39,944 nt of DNA from positions 1-39,944 of the IMG/VR virus record IMGVR_UViG_3300025889_000291; one strand, 5' to 3'. Every line of letters starts with the position of its first letter. The stretch's first letter is position 1. The notes under the pieces were generated by a model. It made no database searches, was not told the DNA's origin, and saw nothing but the letters and a program-made list of their open reading frames with translations. Positions 7,322 through 35,029 of the stretch are shown here, one piece after another. The translations under genes and the position numbers were made by a program. This stretch comes from a virus.

Positions 7322-7543
7322 ATGTCTGACTACATCACCATCAAGGCCGCCTCTAATCTGTTCGACGTGCCTGTCATGACCTTGCACAAGGCATTGCGTA
7401 ACAATAAGATTAACGGGGTACATGCTGGCACCGGAGGCGACTCTAAAGCATCGGGCCTAGATGGTCGGCTGGTGTATCACAATCTGGTCAGCGTGAGCAG
7501 CGTTATCAGGTGGAACGCTGACAGGATGAAAGATAAAGTGTGA
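7322..7543 (+). CDS. Small HTH-like DNA-binding protein, 73 residues
   Basis: ATG 7322 is preceded by AGGAGA. The N-terminus, YITIKAASNLFDVPVMTLHK, followed by ALRNNKINGVHAG and later GRLVYHNLVSVSSV, resembles excisionase/MerR-type winged-helix proteins: a helix-turn-helix from about residue 6 to 27, then a short wing. It may regulate the operon or act in excision, although no integrase is visible. Its stop overlaps the start of the first QV-repeat ORF as TGATG. Confidence 0.55.
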   Translation: MSDYITIKAASNLFDVPVMTLHKALRNNKINGVHAGTGGDSKASGLDGRLVYHNLVSVSSVIRWNADRMKDKV

Positions 7544-7752
7544 TGAATGATGTCAGGGACCAGGTCAGGGATCAGGTCTGGGATCAGGTCTTGGATCAGA
7601 TCAGGGATCAGGTCGGGGAGCAGGTCTGGGATCAGATCAGGGATCAGGTCTGGGATCAGGTCACGGATCAGGTCTGGGATCAGGTCAGGGATCAGGTCTG
7701 GGATCAGGTCTTGGAGCAGGTCACGGATCAGGTCGAGGAGCAAACTAGATGA
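7543..7752 (+). CDS. QV-repeat ORF 1 (69 residues)
   Basis: The ORF starts at ATG 7543, overlapping the HTH gene's stop (TGATG). After MNDV it consists of about 15 tetrapeptides X-Q-V-Z, with X mostly D and Z being R, W, L, G, T or E, and ends EEQTR. The stop overlaps the next start as ATGA, preceded by GGAGC. It has no signal or hydrophobic segment. Such tracts are known to me as internal parts of DUF6745 proteins; here the tract stands alone. Confidence 0.75.
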   Translation: MNDVRDQVRDQVWDQVLDQIRDQVGEQVWDQIRDQVWDQVTDQVWDQVRDQVWDQVLEQVTDQVEEQTR

Positions 7753-8051
7753 AACAGGTCACATATCAGGTCTGGGATCAGGTCAGGGATCAGGTCAGGG
7801 ATCAGGTCGGGGATCAGGTCAGGGATCAGGTCAGGGATCAGGTCTGGGCTCAGGTCTGGGCTCAGGTCGTGGATCAGGTCGGGGATCAGGTCAGGGATCA
7901 GATCAGGGATCAGATCAGGGATCAGGTCAGGGATCAGGTCGTGTATCAGGTCTGGGCTCAGGTCGGGGATCAGGTCGGGGATCAGGTCTGGGATCAGGTC
8001 TGGGATCAGGTCTTGGAGCAGGTCTTGGAGCAGGTCAGGGATCAAGTCTAG
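7749..8051 (+). CDS. QV-repeat ORF 2 (100 residues, longest)
   Basis: This ORF starts at ATGA with GGAGCAAACTAG before it and has about 25 X-Q-V-Z units. It ends without the usual Q-T-K/R cap: a TAG at 8049 replaces what would be a TGG (W) codon, and the frame would otherwise stay open for another 14 codons to about 8095. It therefore looks like a repeat ORF cut short by one substitution. Confidence 0.72.
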   Translation: MKQVTYQVWDQVRDQVRDQVGDQVRDQVRDQVWAQVWAQVVDQVGDQVRDQIRDQIRDQVRDQVVYQVWAQVGDQVGDQVWDQVWDQVLEQVLEQVRDQV

Positions 8052-8098
8052 GCTCAGGTTAGGTATATAAAACAACTCACGAACAGGAGTATCTAAAA

Positions 8099-8941
8099 AT
8101 GCGTGTATCTTTTGGGCATGCCGGATCGGCAGATCATACCGGAGAGGGTTGGGATTTCGAAGTAGCATTCGAGCCGACTCGATTCGATAAGAGCAAGTAC
8201 GTACTCAATGCCGATACCGGGGACGTGTTAGGTATCGTCGGCAAAGACTTCAATTGCGTCAGTCATGCTGAGTTCTTCGAGGGGATCGAGGACGGTTTCC
8301 CTGATGGATTCGGGTCGGCTACCACTCGAACCTTCACCAGTCGCAAAGGTGCTTGGGCATTGCGTGAATGGGCATTCGAGGGTATGCAGTCCCTGATCTC
8401 TACTGATCAGAAGGAAAGCTCACTGGTCTATAAGATCGTGGCGTGGCATGGTCTGGATGGTCTGACATCCAATAACGTCCTGTCCGGGTCGCGTCTGTCC
8501 TGGTGTCTTAATACCTGTGTATGGGGTGAAGATATCTCTCATATCCGCAGGAAGAACAGCCGACACTTTGATCTTGACAAGTTCCTTCTTGAAGTACAGG
8601 ATGGTTCTGTTATCTTCGCTCAGCATATCGAAGCCATGAAACGGATGGCGCAGCGTAAGATCACACTGGATCAGGCAGAAACGGTGATCAATAATATCAT
8701 CCCGTTCGAGCGTACCCAGAAGGCTATGATTGAACTGGCCGCAGATAATATGGACCAGTGGGGCAACAATACCTTCGGGCTGTATAATGCCTTCACTAAC
8801 TACGCAACCTATGCCGATGAACGGAATGGGTTTGCTATGCGAGACAGTTCAAACGATAATCAGATTGAACGCTTGCATTCCAGGTCATTTGATGTTATGA
8901 ACTGGGTCAACACCGCTGCATTTCAGTCGATTGCAGCTTAA
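8099..8941 (+). CDS. DUF932-like phage protein
   Basis: The 280-residue product contains YVLNADTGDVLGIVGKDFN, then AWHGLDGLTSNNVLSGSRLS, then LNTCVWGEDISHIRRKNSRH. This matches the DUF932 (phage/plasmid-like, TIGR03299) pattern: a domain that recalls an allele state, then HG-x-D-G-x-x-S-N-N and C-x-N-x-x. The function is not settled; members often sit in phage and plasmid accessory operons. ATG 8099 follows an AGGAG site. It lies between QV arrays 1 and 2. Confidence 0.8.
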   Translation: MRVSFGHAGSADHTGEGWDFEVAFEPTRFDKSKYVLNADTGDVLGIVGKDFNCVSHAEFFEGIEDGFPDGFGSATTRTFTSRKGAWALREWAFEGMQSLISTDQKESSLVYKIVAWHGLDGLTSNNVLSGSRLSWCLNTCVWGEDISHIRRKNSRHFDLDKFLLEVQDGSVIFAQHIEAMKRMAQRKITLDQAETVINNIIPFERTQKAMIELAADNMDQWGNNTFGLYNAFTNYATYADERNGFAMRDSSNDNQIERLHSRSFDVMNWVNTAAFQSIAA

Positions 8942-8959
8942 CATGAGGAGACTAAGCAT

Positions 8960-9310
8960 ATGAAAACCTTCACCAACATGGCCGCTCAAGGTGACTTCAT
9001 CATCTTCCGGGTTGACACAATCCCGGAGAACCTAGAGAAGATCCAGCCGGATCAAGGCTATCTGACCATCGCTCACAGTGAGACCGGGCATGATCATGTC
9101 ATGCTGGCTGAACGCACCACCGCATACAAGGATCGTATGACCTCGGACGACAAGCTGTTCGAACTGTTCCTGTCAGTCGAAGCACCCACCGAGATCATTC
9201 ACAAGCGGTCCTATGATACCCATGAAACCCTGCTTGTTCCCGCTGGTAACTATGTTATCAAGCGCCAGCGTGAGTACACCCCGGAGGGATATCGCCGGGC
9301 TGCTGATTGA
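8960..9310 (+). CDS. Small partner protein with ETGHDHV and REYTPEG motifs
   Basis: The 116-residue protein begins MKTFTNMAAQGDFIIFRVDT and contains IAHSETGHDHVML, then KRSYDTHETLLVPAGNYVIK, then RQREYTPEGYRR. From memory, this family (H-S-E-T-G-H-x-H-V and R-E-Y-T-P-E-G) is commonly encoded beside DUF6745 genes in bacteria and phages. The histidine/glutamate set and predicted beta content suggest a cupin-like metal site, which is inference. A terminator follows at once. Confidence 0.65.
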   Translation: MKTFTNMAAQGDFIIFRVDTIPENLEKIQPDQGYLTIAHSETGHDHVMLAERTTAYKDRMTSDDKLFELFLSVEAPTEIIHKRSYDTHETLLVPAGNYVIKRQREYTPEGYRRAAD

Positions 9311-9318
9311 TCTAAACT

Positions 9319-9353
9319 AGGGCGGGCTGTGTCTGATATGGCCCGCCCTTTCC
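9319..9353 (+). terminator. Rho-independent terminator
   Basis: AGGGCGGGC (9319-9327) pairs with GCCCGCCCT (9341-9349), followed by TTCCTT. The 9-bp GC-rich stem ends the transcript after the partner gene and stands directly before QV ORF 3. Confidence 0.78.
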
Positions 9354-9370
9354 TTGGTGGAGCAAACAAA

Positions 9371-9577
9371 ATGAATCAGGTCGGGTATCAGGTCAGTGAT
9401 CAGGTCAGGGATCAGGTTTGGGGTCAGGTCTGGGATCAGGTCTGGGATCAGGTCGATGGTCAGGTCAGTGATCAGGTCAGGGATCAGGTTTGGGGTCAGG
9501 TCGATGGTCAGGTCAGTGATCAGGTCAGGGATCAGGTCAGGGATCAGGTAAAAAATCAGTCTAACAACTCAGTATAA
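9371..9577 (+). CDS. QV-repeat ORF 3 (68 residues)
   Basis: ATG 9371 follows GGTGGAGCAAACAAA, the same joint that separates the chained repeat ORFs, although no repeat ORF ends here. The sequence [20 protein letters not shown] continues for about 15 units, with several D-G and S-D pairs in a higher-order pattern. It ends VKNQSNNSV rather than the usual Q-T-K cap. An earlier in-frame ATG at 9329 lies inside the terminator and is unlikely. Confidence 0.72.
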   Translation: MNQVGYQVSDQVRDQVWGQVWDQVWDQVDGQVSDQVRDQVWGQVDGQVSDQVRDQVRDQVKNQSNNSV

Positions 9578-9602
9578 CATCATCAACTTAGGGAGACGTG
9601 TC

Positions 9603-10466
9603 ATGTTGAATAACCTCAACGACGAACAAATCAAAGGTATCGAAGTCTGCCGTGACAAGTGGATCAAGATTGGTCTACAGACAGGGCCGATTGACCGTGA
9701 TGCTGCTATCGTAGCAGTTAACAAAGCCTACAAGCGTGCCGGTCTTGAGCATCCCAAGGAAGTTGTGTTCTGTTCTAGCCCTCTGGATATGGATAAGAAG
9801 ATCCGAGGGGCAAGCAAAGATCAGCACAACTTCGTTTCCAGCAACGGATTTGCCAACTGCTGGACCGGTTGGGTAGCATTTACCGACTACTTCCACACCT
9901 ATACAGACGTGAAGAACTTGGAAGTATTCGAGGGTCTGCGTGATCTGTCTTACAACTGTGGGTTTGTCAGCTTCTTCGATACTCACGTCTTTATCTCGGA
10001 ACGTCCTGAGTATATCAAGATGGATGATACCGGTCTCACCCACTGCGAAAACGGCCCTGCTATCCGATATGCTGATGGGTTCGAAGTGTACATCTGGCAT
10101 GGTGTCCGTGTCCCTAAGTCTTGGATCACCGACGGGCCTGACATTAAGCAGGCTCTCCACAACAGCAACCTAGAAATGCGTCGGGTAGCATCCGAGATCA
10201 TCGGCTGGGCTAAGATCCTGGATCATTATCAGGCCGAGGTTATTAACGAGGACGCAGATCCTCAGATCGGTACTCTGCTCAAGGTCAATATCCCAGATGT
10301 TGGCGAGGAGTATTTCCTTAAGGTTCTGTGTGGAACCGGTCGTACGTTTGCTATCCCTGTTCCTGAGACGGATGAGGATGGTAAGCTTATCGACACCGCC
10401 CTGGCTGCTAATGCTTGGACGTATGGTATCAAGCCTTGGGAGTACAAGCCGGAAGTCAGAACCTAA
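9603..10466 (+). CDS. DUF6745-like protein without the internal QV tract
   Basis: The 287-residue protein reads RDKWIKIGLQTGPIDRDAA near the N-terminus, then SSPL (about residues 60-63), WTGWVAFTDYF, ISERPEYIKMDDTGLTHCEN, GPAIRYADGFEVYIWHGVRV, MRRV and finally AWTYGIKPWEYKPEVRT. This is the domain order I recall for DUF6745. Known members often carry a D-Q-V-R/W repeat tract between the S-P-L and W-x-x-F-x-D-Y-F elements. Here only about 26 ordinary residues lie there, and the repeats are encoded separately. Function is unknown. A terminator follows. Confidence 0.75.
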   Translation: MLNNLNDEQIKGIEVCRDKWIKIGLQTGPIDRDAAIVAVNKAYKRAGLEHPKEVVFCSSPLDMDKKIRGASKDQHNFVSSNGFANCWTGWVAFTDYFHTYTDVKNLEVFEGLRDLSYNCGFVSFFDTHVFISERPEYIKMDDTGLTHCENGPAIRYADGFEVYIWHGVRVPKSWITDGPDIKQALHNSNLEMRRVASEIIGWAKILDHYQAEVINEDADPQIGTLLKVNIPDVGEEYFLKVLCGTGRTFAIPVPETDEDGKLIDTALAANAWTYGIKPWEYKPEVRT

Positions 10467-10472
10467 CAAGCC

Positions 10473-10503
10473 GAAGGCAGGATATAATCCTGCCTTCTCT
10501 TTA
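10473..10503 (+). terminator. Rho-independent terminator
   Basis: GAAGGCAGGA (10473-10482) pairs with TCCTGCCTTC (10488-10497) around a 5-base loop, followed by TCTTTACC. It ends the DUF6745-like gene and precedes the largest QV array. Confidence 0.8.
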
Positions 10504-10525
10504 CCTAAGTCAGGGAGCAAACAAA

Positions 10526-10735
10526 ATGAAGCAGGTCTGGGATCAGGTCAGGGCTCAGGTCGGGGATCAGGTCTGGGATCAGGTCGATGGTCAGGTCGGG
10601 GATCAGGTCGCGTATCGGGTTAGGAATCAGGTCAGGAATCAGGTCGGGGATCAGATCGGGGTTCAGGTTGGGGATCAGGTCTGGGATCAGGTCTGGGATC
10701 AGGTCAGGGCTCAGGTCCGGGGGCAAACAAAATGA
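10526..10735 (+). CDS. QV-repeat ORF 4 (69 residues)
   Basis: ATG 10526 follows GGGAGCAAACAAA just after the DUF6745 terminator. About 16 units follow [16 protein letters not shown], including one degenerate A-Y-R-V unit, and the ORF ends RGQTK. Its TGA overlaps the next ATG. Its length equals that of QV ORFs 1, 7 and 10. Confidence 0.72.
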
Positions 10736-10965
10736 ATCAGGTCGGGTATCAGGTCAGGGCTCAGGTCGAGGTTCAGGTCAGGGCTCAGGTCTGGGATCAG
10801 GTCTGGGATCAGGTCGGGAATCAGGTCGCGTATCAGGTCTGGGATCAGGTTAGGGCTCAGGTCTGGGATCAGGTCAGGGCTCAGGTCAGGGCTCAGGTCT
10901 GGGCTCAGGTCTGGGATCAGGTAGGGGCTCAGGTCGGGGCTCAGGTCAGGGAGCAAACAAAATGA
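10732..10965 (+). CDS. QV-repeat ORF 5 (77 residues)
   Basis: Coupled by ATGA to ORF 4, it has about 18 units from [16 protein letters not shown] to GAQVREQTK. Alanine often replaces aspartate in the first variable position here (R-A, W-A, G-A pairs). The joint before it has GGGGGC in place of GGAGC, a weaker ribosome site. Confidence 0.7.
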
Positions 10966-11015
10966 ATAAGGTCTTAGTTCAGGCCAGGGCTCAGGTCGGG
11001 GGGCAAACAAAATGA
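10962..11015 (+). CDS. QV-repeat ORF 6, minimal (17 residues)
   Basis: The reading [17 protein letters not shown] keeps both end caps but only about three units between them. It sits between two joints in the same coupled chain. It is probably a deletion product of a longer repeat ORF whose frame and caps were preserved. Confidence 0.55.
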
Positions 11016-11221
11016 ATAAGGTCGAGGTTCAGGTCAGGGCTCAGGTCTGGGATCAGGTCAGGGATCAGGTCTGGGATCAGGTCAGGGCTCAGGTCAGGAA
11101 TCAGGTCTGGGATCAGGTCTGGGATCAGGTCAGGGCTCAGGTCGAGGATCAGGTCTGGGATCAGGCCAGGGATCAGGCCAGGGCTCAGGTCGGGGCTCAG
11201 GTCGGGGGGCAAACAAAATGA
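11012..11221 (+). CDS. QV-repeat ORF 7 (69 residues)
   Basis: Coupled by ATGA, it has 16 units starting [16 protein letters not shown] and ending GGQTK, with two units where valine is replaced by alanine (Q-A). The same MNKVEV opening and the same joint are used by ORF 8, so the two are probably a recent duplication. Confidence 0.7.
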
Positions 11222-11439
11222 ATAAGGTCGAGGTTCAGGTCAGGGCTCAGGTCTGGGATCAGGTCAGGAATCAGGTCGCGTATCAGGTCTGGGATCAGGT
11301 CGCGTATCAGGTCAGGAATCAGGTCGCGTATCAGGTCAGGGATCAGGTCAGGAATCAGGTTGGGGGTCAGGTCAGGGATCAGGTCTGGGATCAGGTCTGG
11401 AATCAGGTCAGGGCTCAGGTCAGGGAGCAAACAAAATGA
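11218..11439 (+). CDS. QV-repeat ORF 8 (73 residues)
   Basis: It has about 17 units with a strong secondary pattern of R-N, A-Y and W-D pairs (residues 17-45) and ends REQTK. It is coupled to its neighbours by ATGA at both ends. Confidence 0.7.
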
Positions 11440-11651
11440 ATAAGGTCTTAGTTCAGGTCAGGGCTCAGGTCTGGGATAAGGTCTGGGATCAGGCTGATGG
11501 TCAGGTCAGGGCTCAGGTCGCGTATCAGGTCAGGAATCAGGTCGGGGGTCAGGTCGGGGCTCAGGTCGGGGATCAGGTCTGGAATCAGGTCTGGAATCAG
11601 GTCTGGAATCAGATCAGGGCTCAGGTGTCTGGTGATATTGGGAATCACTAA
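11436..11651 (+). CDS. QV-repeat ORF 9 (71 residues), last of the chain
   Basis: It opens [16 protein letters not shown], identical at first to the minimal ORF 6, and continues with about 15 units including three W-N pairs. It ends VSGDIGNH instead of the Q-T-K cap, leaving the repeat at a new junction before the membrane microprotein gene. Confidence 0.7.
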
Positions 11652-11667
11652 CGAAAGAAAATAATAC

Positions 11668-11799
11668 ATGAATACTTTGGAGTCACTAGGTCTTGTTGAC
11701 TGGTTTATATATCTTGGGTTAATATCGGTTTACCTATTGGTATTCTGGTTCCTGCATCTAGTGAACCAAGCGGATAACGGAGAACTTGATGATCATTAA
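11668..11799 (+). CDS. Membrane microprotein, module copy A (43 residues)
   Basis: From ATG 11668 the product opens [20 protein letters not shown], with one hydrophobic helix (about residues 11-32), and ends with an acidic tail DNGELDDH. It shares layout and the W-x-I-Y-L pattern with the ORF at 13124-13261. Its end overlaps the next start. It is the first gene of a three-gene module that occurs twice. Confidence 0.6.
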
Positions 11800-12019
11800 T
11801 AGTATGTTTCTTGTTGGTACGGACGAAGATGATCTTGACTTTGATCAAGATTTCGAGGATATTTTATGGACCGAAAAGAGTATGTTTATCGTTGAAGAAA
11901 ATATCAGGTTGAAGCCCTGGGATGTAGACTTCAACAGAGGGGTGTGGTCAGATGAAGACGCACAAACAGAAAGGGAAATCCAATCCTTTCGCAAAACAAT
12001 TGAGGACGAGTCTGTATAA
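11789..12019 (+). CDS. Acidic protein, module copy A (76 residues)
   Basis: ATG 11789 follows GGAG by 6 bases, as in the second copy. The product is very acidic (DEDDLDFDQDFEDILW), then VEENIRLKPWDVDFNRGVWS and DEDAQTEREIQSFRK. The paralogue at 13251-13463 shares VEENI-x-x-K-P-W-D and RGVWSDE. The last third also encodes another protein in a different frame. Function is unknown; such acidity could allow a DNA-mimic role, but that is speculation. Confidence 0.65.
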   Translation: MIINSMFLVGTDEDDLDFDQDFEDILWTEKSMFIVEENIRLKPWDVDFNRGVWSDEDAQTEREIQSFRKTIEDESV

Positions 12020-12116
12020 ACCCAAGGTCGCACAGAACAAGAGTAAGTACGACAGAAAAAAACAGGGAAAGGTGGATCATGGTCTTAGACGAAACATCGC
12101 TAGACTGGACGATTGA
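11952..12116 (+). CDS. ArfA-like small basic protein, module copy A (54 residues), overlapping frame
   Basis: Within and beyond the acidic gene, another frame reads MKTHKQKGKSNPFAKQLRTS, then LYKPKVAQNKSKYDRKKQGK. A GAGGGG site precedes the ATG and is identical in the second copy. The K-x-N-P-x-A-x-x-L...LY-x-x-x-V-x-x-N-K-x-K-Y-x-R-K pattern aligns by eye with the ribosome-binding core of ArfA (alternative ribosome-rescue factor A). This would act at stalled ribosomes with a host release factor. The similarity is short, so it is a proposal. The end overlaps the MazG-like start. Confidence 0.5.
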   Translation: MKTHKQKGKSNPFAKQLRTSLYKPKVAQNKSKYDRKKQGKVDHGLRRNIARLDD

Positions 12117-12588
12117 AACGCTGGTTCTTGATGCTAACAGCTTCGCCGGTTTAACCTGGAATGAAGCTCTTATGGCCGAGAACATGCGACGGGCTGCTGA
12201 TTATCTATCAGAAATGAAAAAGGAAAAGGAACAGATCATGGATATGGACAAGTATCAGACTGAATCACTCAAGACCGCCGTGTATCCCGAGGGTCAGGGC
12301 AAACTGTATACGGTTCTGGGTCTGGCGAATGAGGCCGGTGAAGTAGCCGGTGTGGTTAAGAAGATTATCCGGCAGGATGTTCATCTTCCTCGCTGCCTGA
12401 CAGAAGAAGAAAACGACAGGATGAACCAGGAAAAGATCCGCGCTGAACTTGGCGATGTGCTATGGTACTTGGCTGCTGTAGCAAAAGAGTATAACCTTAA
12501 GATGTCTGATGTCGCTCAGTATAACCTGGATAAACTAAAGGACCGGGCAGAGCGTGGTGTTATTAAGGGGTCGGGTGATAACCGATGA
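12079..12588 (+). CDS. MazG-like nucleotide pyrophosphohydrolase
   Basis: The 169-residue ORF has a MazG-type domain from about residue 56: YQTESLKTAVYPEGQGKLYT, then GLANEAGEVAGVVKK (E-A-G-E motif), then RAELGDVLWYLAAVAKEYN (E-x-x-D metal site). Such phage enzymes hydrolyse NTPs or dNTPs, and possibly ppGpp. The first 53 residues are an extra acidic/helical extension; an internal ATG at 12238 would give only the MazG part. The stop overlaps QV ORF 10 as ATGA. Confidence 0.78.
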   Translation: MVLDETSLDWTIETLVLDANSFAGLTWNEALMAENMRRAADYLSEMKKEKEQIMDMDKYQTESLKTAVYPEGQGKLYTVLGLANEAGEVAGVVKKIIRQDVHLPRCLTEEENDRMNQEKIRAELGDVLWYLAAVAKEYNLKMSDVAQYNLDKLKDRAERGVIKGSGDNR

Positions 12589-12794
12589 ATGAGGTTAATA
12601 ATCAGGTCAGTGAGCAGATCATGGGTCAGGCCAGGCATCAGATCATGGATCAGGTCAGGAATCAGGTCTGGGATCAGGTCTGGTATCAGGTCAGGAATCA
12701 GGTCAGTGGTCAGGTCAGTGGTCAGGTCTGGGGTCAGGTCAGTAGTCAGGTCTGGTATCAGGTCTGGGATCAGGTCAGGGGGCAAACAGGATGA
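12585..12794 (+). CDS. QV-repeat ORF 10 (69 residues)
   Basis: Coupled by ATGA to the MazG-like gene, it opens MNEVNNQVSEQIMGQARHQI, the most divergent units in the window, then settles into regular Q-V units and ends RGQTG. About 16 units give the same 69-residue length as ORFs 1, 4 and 7. Its stop overlaps the zinc-finger gene that follows. Confidence 0.7.
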   Translation: MNEVNNQVSEQIMGQARHQIMDQVRNQVWDQVWYQVRNQVSGQVSGQVWGQVSSQVWYQVWDQVRGQTG

Positions 12795-13009
12795 CTATCA
12801 CATCACCGTTAAAAGCTATCCGACAAAACTGTATCGAGTGTTGTGGAGGCAGCAAGCATGAGGTCAGTCTATGCCCCGCTACTGGATGCTCGCTCCACCC
12901 CTTCCGCTTTGGTAAGAATCCATATAGTAAACGTACACTTTCAGACGAACAAAGAGAAGCTGCTAGGGTACGCCTACAGAACTATCACGAAGCGAATAAA
13001 ACAACATAA
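12791..13009 (+). CDS. Small zinc-finger phage protein (72 residues)
   Basis: It is coupled by ATGA to QV ORF 10. The sequence LKAIRQNCIECCGGSKHEVS, then CPATGC and LHPFRFGKNPY, is a recurrent phage pattern: K-A-I-R-x-x-C-x-x-C, G-G, C-x-x-x-x-C, P-[FY]-R-x-G-x-[NR]-P. The cysteines probably bind zinc. Members are common in phage replication or regulation regions; the exact role is unknown. Confidence 0.72.
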   Translation: MTITSPLKAIRQNCIECCGGSKHEVSLCPATGCSLHPFRFGKNPYSKRTLSDEQREAARVRLQNYHEANKTT

Positions 13010-13026
13010 CTAAACATAAAACAGAG

Positions 13027-13103
13027 GCTTCCGTAGCTCAACTGGATAGAGCATGAGACTTCTAATCTCAGGGTTGCAGGTTCGAGCCCTGCCGGGAGCA
13101 CCA
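13027..13103 (+). tRNA. tRNA-Arg (anticodon UCU)
   Basis: A full cloverleaf is visible: acceptor GCTTCCG (13027-13033) with CGGGAGC (13093-13099, one T-G pair), anticodon stem GAGA/TCTC around loop CTTCTAA with anticodon TCT, a T arm with GGTTCGAGCCC, and an encoded CCA at 13101-13103. It reads AGA and, by wobble, AGG. AGG is the main arginine codon of the QV-repeat ORFs on both sides of it. Confidence 0.92.
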
Positions 13104-13123
13104 ATCTATCTTAAGGAAACTAT

Positions 13124-13261
13124 ATGCTATCAGACTATCCCGAACCATGGACGGTCAGCACTTGGATCATTTATCTGCTGGTGTTAGGGTGCTATTTCGG
13201 TGTACTATATGTATTAAGCGCGGCAGAGCGTATCAATTATGGAGAATCAAATGATGATTAA
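13124..13261 (+). CDS. Membrane microprotein, module copy B (45 residues)
   Basis: ATG 13124 follows AAGGAAA. The product opens MLSDYPEPWTVSTWIIYLLV, has one hydrophobic helix (about residues 13-33) and ends NYGESNDD. It matches the layout of the ORF at 11668-11799: short polar N-terminus, W-x-I-Y-L helix, acidic tail, and overlap with the acidic gene. Confidence 0.6.
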   Translation: MLSDYPEPWTVSTWIIYLLVLGCYFGVLYVLSAAERINYGESNDD

Positions 13262-13463
13262 GAGCGGGTTCGTACCTGACACACTAGAGGATTATGACGA
13301 GTTCGATGACTGGGTATGGACTGATAGGGATACGGAATCAGTCGAAGAAAATATCAAGATCAAACCATGGGATCTTAATATCGGCAGAGGGGTATGGTCA
13401 GATGAAGAGACCGAAACACAAAAAGAAATCGAATCCTATCGCCAAAGATTTGATGACGAGTAA
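13251..13463 (+). CDS. Acidic protein, module copy B (70 residues)
   Basis: It starts at ATG 13251, six bases after GGAG as in copy A. The sequence DTLEDYDEFDDWVWTDRDTE is followed by VEENIKIKPWDLNIGRGVWS and DEETETQKEIESYRQ. The C-terminal half is clearly homologous to copy A, while the N-terminal half has diverged but kept its acidity. Its last 62 bases also encode the ArfA-like protein in another frame. Confidence 0.65.
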   Translation: MMIKSGFVPDTLEDYDEFDDWVWTDRDTESVEENIKIKPWDLNIGRGVWSDEETETQKEIESYRQRFDDE

Positions 13464-13548
13464 ATACAAACCAATAGCATTACCCAATAAGAAGAAAGAA
13501 CAGAAAAAAGTCGGGTACTCTAACCAAGACACAGGTGATAGCAAATGA
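13402..13548 (+). CDS. ArfA-like small basic protein, module copy B (48 residues), overlapping frame
   Basis: The second frame reads MKRPKHKKKSNPIAKDLMTS, then KYKPIALPNKKKEQKKVGYS. The first 24 residues match copy A (MK-x-x-K-x-K-x-K-S-N-P-x-A-K-x-L-x-T-S-x-Y-K-P), whereas the K-Y-x-R-K part is less well kept, so this copy may have changed role. It shares the AGAGGGG ribosome site. Its stop overlaps QV ORF 11 as ATGA. Confidence 0.48.
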   Translation: MKRPKHKKKSNPIAKDLMTSKYKPIALPNKKKEQKKVGYSNQDTGDSK

Positions 13549-13730
13549 AACAGGTCAAGTGGCAGGTCAGGGCTCAGGTCTGGGATCAGGTCGGGGATCA
13601 GGTTGAGGCTCAGGTCTGGGATCAGGTTGAGGATCAGGTCAGGACTCAGGTCAGGACTCAGGTCAGGGATCAGGTCGAGGGTCAGGTCTGGGATCGGGTC
13701 TGGGATCAGATCAAGGAGCAAACTAGATGA
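13545..13730 (+). CDS. QV-repeat ORF 11 (61 residues)
   Basis: Coupled by ATGA at both ends, it opens [20 protein letters not shown] and has about 14 units, with R-T and E-A/E-D pairs, ending KEQTR. It is the last repeat ORF before the replication genes. The joint after it (AAGGAGCAAACTAG) is the same as after ORF 1. Confidence 0.7.
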   Translation: MKQVKWQVRAQVWDQVGDQVEAQVWDQVEDQVRTQVRTQVRDQVEGQVWDRVWDQIKEQTR

Positions 13731-13876
13731 AACAGGATGTAATCTATGGAGACTTAGAGGACATAGTCCTTGATGATATATATGAGACCTATCCTAACAT
13801 AGAGTCAGAAGATTGGTGTGGCAGGATAGATATGTTTTGGAAGGATAAACTAGATGATACAGGATCTTCTCAATGA
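13727..13876 (+). CDS. Small acidic protein (49 residues)
   Basis: It starts at the ATGA after QV ORF 11 and reads MKQDVIYGDLEDIVLDDIYE, ending DDTGSSQ. It uses the QV-ORF joint as its ribosome site and overlaps the primase start by 23 bases. The net charge is strongly negative. No family is recognised. Confidence 0.5.
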   Translation: MKQDVIYGDLEDIVLDDIYETYPNIESEDWCGRIDMFWKDKLDDTGSSQ

Positions 13877-33786: not shown

Positions 33787-34794
33787 TTATACAGGATAAT
33801 TCATTAGGCCAGATGAAGACACCGGCTGAGTTACTTGGTCTCGTGGATCGACTGTCATCGGACCCATCGGACCCATAATGGTTTGTTGACCTTGGGCTGG
33901 TGGGGCAAACTTTTGGGTTTGGGCATACTGAGTAGCAGCCTGAGTAGCCCCACCCGGTTGAATACCCGCTGTAGCACCCATAGCAGCAACAGGGGCAGCC
34001 ATACCTCCCATAAGAGAGCGTTGCTGTTCTACGCCGGTATTGACTTGCTGGCCTACATCCGCTACCTGTCTAGCAATCTGTTCTCGACCTGTCATACCAG
34101 AAGTCTGGATCTGAGCACGCTGACGTTGGGCTTCACGCTGATACTGTTCCGCCGCCCGCTCTAGTGCATCAATGTTTTGAGATACGCCGCCGACTGCGCC
34201 AGTGATATCCTGAATACCGCCTGTTAGCTGTTGACCTAGAGCCTGTTGACCGCCCATAAGACCGGCCTGACCGGCAAATAGAGTAGTCGGCTGACCTTCA
34301 CCCGGAGCACCGATTGCACCTTGAATTGCGCCTTGACCAGCACCAAGTGCCTGTTGACCGGCCATAAGACCTTGTTGACCTGTCTCTAGACCTGTCACCC
34401 CGGTTTGAATATTCTGTTGACCGGCCATAAGACCTTGTTGACCTGTCTGTAGACCTGTCACCCCGGTTTGAATATTCTGCTGACCTGTCTCTAGACCGGT
34501 GATACCAGTCTGGATAGGAGAAAGATCCGGTGCCTGTTGAGTCTGATTAGATTGTACGACCGTGGTTGTACCGGGCGCGAAGGAACCAGAACCATAGATG
34601 TTAGACAGAGCGTTATACGAAGCCTGTTGTTCAGGGGTTGCGCCAGTAATATACTGCTGAAACTTTTGAGTAGGATCGGCGGAGAACTGGCCACTGTATC
34701 CAGTTGCTTGGCGAAGGGCGGCATGATACTGGGGTAGACCAGCCTGCACTTCGGCCTGTGAATAGTACAATTGCCCGTTAACTGCTGTAGGCAT
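33787..34794 (-). CDS. Repeat-containing late protein (335 residues)
   Basis: The N-terminal 80 residues look folded (LYYSQAEVQAGLPQYHAALR). Then come 21-residue repeats of type G-L-x-T-G-Q-Q-x-x-x-x-G (about residues 95-170), matched by 63-bp DNA repeats, then a charged helix (residues 210-260) and a Gln/Gly-rich C-terminus. The layout suggests an elongated structural protein between the fibre genes and internal virion genes. Confidence 0.58.
   Translation of the reverse strand: MPTAVNGQLYYSQAEVQAGLPQYHAALRQATGYSGQFSADPTQKFQQYITGATPEQQASYNALSNIYGSGSFAPGTTTVVQSNQTQQAPDLSPIQTGITGLETGQQNIQTGVTGLQTGQQGLMAGQQNIQTGVTGLETGQQGLMAGQQALGAGQGAIQGAIGAPGEGQPTTLFAGQAGLMGGQQALGQQLTGGIQDITGAVGGVSQNIDALERAAEQYQREAQRQRAQIQTSGMTGREQIARQVADVGQQVNTGVEQQRSLMGGMAAPVAAMGATAGIQPGGATQAATQYAQTQKFAPPAQGQQTIMGPMGPMTVDPRDQVTQPVSSSGLMNYPV
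34351..34480 (-). repeat. 63-bp tandem repeat inside the late gene
   Basis: Copies start at 34351 and 34414, with a partial third from 34477. Each encodes 21 residues of the G-L-x-T-G-Q-Q type. The first two copies differ at very few positions, so the repeat is recent and may vary in number. Confidence 0.75.
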
Positions 34795-34798
34795 GATA

Positions 34799-35029
34799 TT
34801 ACCTCTTTTCTAATACTTTGTCAAGTTTATCTTCAAGCCGGTTGAGACTTTCCATAACCCGCCTCATGTCTTCTCTAAGTTCTACACGAGTGGCGTACTC
34901 TTCCCTAGTCTCTTGAAGTTTGGCTTCTAGTCGTTTAATCTCTGAGAATAAGGACTTGAACACCCATGCAGCAGGAGCCACTATAAGAGATAGAACTATA
35001 TTCCAGATAACTGTAGGAGAAAGGTCCAT
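34799..35029 (-). CDS. Membrane-anchored coiled-coil protein (76 residues), possible lysis protein
   Basis: One N-terminal membrane helix (VIWNIVLSLIVAPAAWVF, about residues 7-24) is followed by a regular charged coiled coil to the end (KRLEAKLQETREEY, then ESLNRLEDKLDKVLEKR). This is the layout of small phage lysis proteins such as haemolysin XhlA-type or inner spanins. No outer spanin is evident, so the exact role is open. Confidence 0.55.
   Translation of the reverse strand: MDLSPTVIWNIVLSLIVAPAAWVFKSLFSEIKRLEAKLQETREEYATRVELREDMRRVMESLNRLEDKLDKVLEKR

Follow-up and report, generated by a model that had tools for sequence, protein, structure and literature searches.

Apparent displacement and multiplication of a tetrapeptide tract outside a phage DUF6745 protein

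Short ORFs built of four-residue QV repeats lie on both sides of a DUF6745 gene in the locus studied here, and the question it raises is whether they represent, in multiplied form, a tract that other DUF6745 proteins carry internally. The window, that is, the whole stretch of 39,944 nucleotides analysed, is a 39.9-kb phage record whose replication genes resemble those of HMO-2011-type and Roseobacter phages (helicase 30-40% identical). Elsewhere in the window, a 63-bp tandem repeat (34351-34512) in a minus-strand ORF (33790-34809) encodes GLxTGQQ-type repeats.

The DUF6745 core and the site of the tract

The plus-strand gene at 9603-10466 encodes a protein of 287 aa, residues 104-287 of which matched Pfam PF20530 (DUF6745) with E=1.5e-21 and 77.1 bits, against a curated cut-off of 27. 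This confirmed both the family and the coordinates given to the gene in an earlier note on this DNA. The note had also placed, correctly, a tract between the SPL and WxxF elements of the family: with the insertion point mapped by alignment, the tract was present in 34 full-length relatives, as 10-54 four-residue repeats of the QV, QL, SSL and AAT types. Tracts of SSLx and xxQL occupy exactly this site in the nearest annotated relatives, phage MW202476 and the Mycobacterium prophage prophiGD102-1. Moreover, DUF6745 matches were obtained in 46 of 60 IMG/VR records retrieved with a QV DNA pattern (45 above the curated cut-off), and in nearly all of these 46 the tract lies within the gene, between the same two elements. 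Note that the residue alphabet of the fused tracts (G/W/R) is biased by the DNA search pattern and was left unused as evidence.

The internal tetrapeptide tract between SP[L/M] and WxxF that characterizes the tract-bearing architecture is absent from the window core. Between S59-P60-L61 and W90-x-x-F93 (WVAF), where alignments and models place the tract site of the relatives (residues 62-89; 9786-9869, plus strand), the core has ordinary, repeat-free residues (lag-4 score 0.14), as had been claimed, although they number 28 and not about 26. In the AlphaFold2 model of the single chain the whole tract-less core is predicted to fold on its own (mean pLDDT 92.9), with a helix (60-70), a short loop and a second helix (85-100) at the tract site. 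The model of the fused member L005 has a confident core (mostly >93), and its tract is predicted to form two long helices of moderate confidence (66-79), placed between core helices 63-73 and 176-191. These flanking helices match the two helices that the loop joins in the window core.

Sequence searches found no useful relative of the core in the PDB. The structure searches gave best Foldseek E-values of about 0.9 to 1.1, with none <0.001, and best Z-scores of 4.0 and 3.8 with a second aligner, failures that are not proof of a new fold. NCBIfam and PADLOC returned no match for the core or for its partner, and in the literature searched the DUF6745 name and the QV motif strings were absent from all papers. 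The partner is a phrog_27831 protein (AQGDFII..AHSETGHDHV; 116 aa; PHROG E=6.3e-9) encoded on the plus strand at 8960-9310, and 81 of 87 loci have it near DUF6745, irrespective of tract state (cis, trans or unseen). Most simply, core and partner would form a pair that works with helical tetrapeptide rods, either a single one in cis or a number of them in trans.

Similar repeats also occur outside DUF6745. QV tracts are also found inside the proteins of an unrelated family (C-terminus SYWAVK...GKKGKFLGEYDE; L024:4623-4997, L039:3203-4012 and L041:5335-6141), so the tract behaves as a module that protein families share. In a Pseudomonadota MAG, a further long ORF, with AAxD tetrapeptide repeats (L196:5074-5913), lies a few kb from a DUF6745 gene.

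The QV ORFs as coupled, variable genes

Eleven stand-alone QV ORFs, including a 17-aa remnant, are distributed across 7543-13730, all on the plus strand. QV1 (69 aa, 7543-7752) overlaps the preceding ORF by 1 nt (TGATG), and QV2 (100 aa, 7749-8051) overlaps QV1 as ATGA. As the note had stated, two QV ORFs immediately flank the core: QV3 (68 aa, 9371-9577), which has the start cassette GGAGCAAACAAAATGAA and ends 25 nt before the core, and QV4 (69 aa, 10526-10735), which also has the start cassette and begins 59 nt after it. QV4 heads a chain continued by QV5 (77 aa, 10732-10965), the remnant QV6 (10962-11015), QV7 (69 aa, 11012-11221), QV8 (73 aa, 11218-11439) and QV9 (71 aa, 11436-11651), in which every stop overlaps the following start as ATGA; even QV6 has its start and stop cassettes intact and ATGA overlaps at both ends. 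QV10 (69 aa, 12585-12794) and QV11 (61 aa, 13545-13730) are likewise coupled by ATGA overlaps, but to genes that have no relation to the core: QV10 to an upstream MazG-domain gene and a downstream ORF, QV11 to the ORFs on either side. A tRNA-Arg (TCT) gene lies between QV10 and QV11 (13027-13103). In the region 13716-13760, the ORF that follows QV11 (13727-13876) begins with the cassette GAGCAAACTAGATGAAACAG, identical to that of QV2, as if the cassette boundary had been copied onto this gene.

Eight of the QV ORFs begin at the ribosome-site cassette GRGCAAACWARATGAA. The start cassette GAGCAAACAAAATGAA, also given as G[G/A]GCAAACAAAATGAA, occurred nine times at <=2 mismatches, compared to 0.01 expected, and eight of the nine occurrences are at QV starts. 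In 50 shuffled windows there were zero ORFs with >=5 in-register QV. Together, the two results exclude a chance origin of the QV ORFs.

In support of their coding nature, the fixed positions of 2248 units hold Q in 78% and V, I or L in 90%, I and L being the chief substitutes of V, while the codons behind these residues turn over: for Q the window uses CAG and most others use CAA, and V is GTC, GTT, GTA or GTG. The ORFs start mostly with M[K/N]xV, and 41 of 117 neighbouring QV pairs overlap by exactly 4 nt. The QV proteins of one phage all differ, their variable dipeptides matching in only about 0-27% of units (median). Their length is also unstable, and it is chiefly in these ORFs that near-identical phages diverge. 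Across 8.36 kb, a single 12-bp deletion in a QV ORF is all that separates L115 from L116, and other near-identical pairs have array indels of 12, 84 or 110 bp and no core indels. Repeat number in the QV ORFs varies among close relatives by 12-nt-multiple indels, as it does in proteins of the Tweety gp54 type (see below), although short-read assembly error in repeats is a possible source of such differences. A diversity-generating retroelement was considered and set aside, there being no PF00078 (reverse transcriptase) match in the 39.9-kb record, itself a fragment.

Tracts in cis and in trans among the relatives

Searching with tract-less cores yielded 15 relatives in genomes and 172 in viral contigs; 80 of the latter were retained. 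The comparison set comprised 88 non-redundant full-length members and covered only the examined stretch around each gene. Stand-alone QV ORFs lay near 31 of the 54 tract-less genes and near none of the 34 tract-bearing ones (Fisher p about 1e-9, uncorrected for kinship). A QV ORF recorded beside the tract-bearing core L038 (774 aa) proved to be a false positive, with no QV repeats. The 31 loci are the window and 30 others in which a tract-less core shares its operon region with stand-alone QV ORFs; they contain 148 QV ORFs in total, at most 18 in any one locus. In 19 of these loci the first of the QV ORFs downstream begins <=100 nt from the end of the core, and in five it overlaps the core stop codon. 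At the other 23 tract-less cores QV ORFs were absent within the examined stretch; many of these records are fragments, and in L143 the array lies farther off. Two further records, both phage fragments, contain QV ORF arrays and no DUF6745 in the record (L017:2968-3779 and L053:5910-7146).

In the tree, which required tract state to change eight times, the window was placed beside the split members L109 and L110 (support 100/99). Because these changes are so few, a kinship-corrected contrast (5-8 pairs, only 1-2 of them informative, all in the expected direction) was unable to reach significance. In the split lineages the tract was likely lost from the core rather than gained by the others, a polarity that is no more than likely because the root was set at the midpoint. 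Displacement of the tract from cis to trans, with multiplication, is well supported by these results. The proposal of the earlier note that the tract had become a separate, multiplied subunit was thus borne out in part: the tract is missing from the window core and is encoded as a multiplied set of mutually different ORFs adjoining it. The arrangement recurs in about 30 other phages, through few independent switches. The split is a recurrent organisation that apparently has gone unreported.

Other explanations for the association have to be weighed. The QV ORFs could be selfish, minisatellite-like coupled cassettes that spread via the stop/start junctions of operons and are useless to the core, the association being phylogenetic. 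ATGA at both ends would let such a cassette drop between genes, as in QV10 and QV11, but in five loci it is the core gene itself that is directly overlapped. Similarly, the dispersed positions of the QV ORFs and the arrays lacking DUF6745 in L017 and L053 suit cassettes of this kind, whereas the absence of QV ORFs near all 34 tract-bearing cores does not. The small number of independent switches and the recombination products among close relatives also agree with it; against this, Q and V are conserved despite codon turnover, and the four-residue chemistry is that of the internal tract in the neighbouring family. We consider this explanation unlikely.

It is also rather improbable that the post-split core acts alone and that the QV proteins have an independent job, for instance as polymeric helical filaments or decoys. 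This would fit a tract-less core predicted to fold fully unaided, the tract-less cores that have no arrays nearby and the QV tracts within an unrelated protein (L024, L039 and L041), but not the tight linkage of the arrays to the core operon, where 19 of 31 loci have the first QV ORF within 100 nt downstream. Finally, the array could be a silent store of cassettes recombined into the tract of the core, as in antigenic variation, a reading that would explain why many diverse and frequently recombining copies adjoin one core, but that is very improbable and close to refuted because the array-adjacent cores lack any acceptor tract (54 tract-less cores) and the QV ORFs bear their own start signals.

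A proposed role and known tetrapeptide-repeat proteins

By Rosetta-stone logic, proteins that one genome fuses and another encodes as separate neighbours tend to interact, a general rule that speaks for the explanation proposed here. In this explanation, DUF6745 proteins normally carry a helical rod, made of four-residue repeats of the xxQV type and its variants, between two core helices, and in the window phage and about 30 sampled relatives this rod has been displaced from the core and re-encoded as multiplied short ORFs of about 60 aa. Each of them has an M[K/N]xV start, its own Shine-Dalgarno site or an ATGA-coupled start and a distinct series of variable residues, and they grow, shrink and fuse by 12-nt steps. 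Most likely, the QV proteins would still act together with the core and phrog_27831, in the manner of interchangeable rods or adaptors; one core could then present many variants simultaneously, and not just a single rod adjusted through its repeat number. Their likeliest task would be to neutralise host targets that vary, anti-phage defence proteins for example.

Taken whole, from displaced and multiplied rods to QV proteins that serve core and partner against variable host targets, we give this explanation an even chance. Its subunit mechanism is plausible, to about the same degree. Its most specific form, in which the different helical rods of up to 18 coupled ORFs would dock on one shared core and form a simultaneous, fast-evolving repertoire against variable host targets, is tentative and somewhat doubtful. 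Should the components prove to assemble, a virus would have a new means of packing a repertoire into a few kilobases, and the uncharacterised DUF6745 family would gain a testable role, for which natural repeat-number variants already exist.

Among known systems, the tract-bearing DUF6745 proteins, such as those of MW202476 (L002) and prophiGD102-1 gp38, have a homologous core and, at the same site, a tetrapeptide tract with 12-nt units, and in L002 the same partner gene (phrog_27831) adjoins the core as in the window. They differ in having a single tract inside the protein, whereas in the window it has gone from the protein and is multiplied outside. The DUF6745 proteins of the Microcystis phages LMM01 and MaMV-DC have a homologous tract-less core, with about 90 unrelated residues at the tract site, and a QV array was not noticed within the 6.5 kb examined. 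In the description given in PMC2884959, VR2 of the Bordetella phage BMP-1 gene bbp36, a dispensable gene, is a short coding repeat of variable copy number; on that description it resembles the QV ORFs, although its unit is of 24 bp and lies in cis.

The best guide to function is a non-homologous protein, Tweety gp54 of a mycobacteriophage. Its counter-defence against Phrann gp29/gp30 is switched on when the number of its tetrapeptides changes (PMC9262239), and its repeat copy number differs among relatives (PMC2884959). It is not a DUF6745 protein: it had no PF20530 match, hhalign gave 0.1% probability, profile similarity being undetectable, and the N- and C-terminal regions showed no homology. 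The likeness lies in repeats of 12 nt, or four residues, of which two are fixed and two vary, set between unique ends; the difference, in the AAxx repeats and the tract in cis. By analogy with it, the trans form of DUF6745 may carry a repertoire. Tweety gp54 is the sole tetrapeptide-repeat phage protein with a known role found here, and its repeat number sets which defence is overcome; DUF6745 seems to have met a similar variability problem by extracting and multiplying the repeat.
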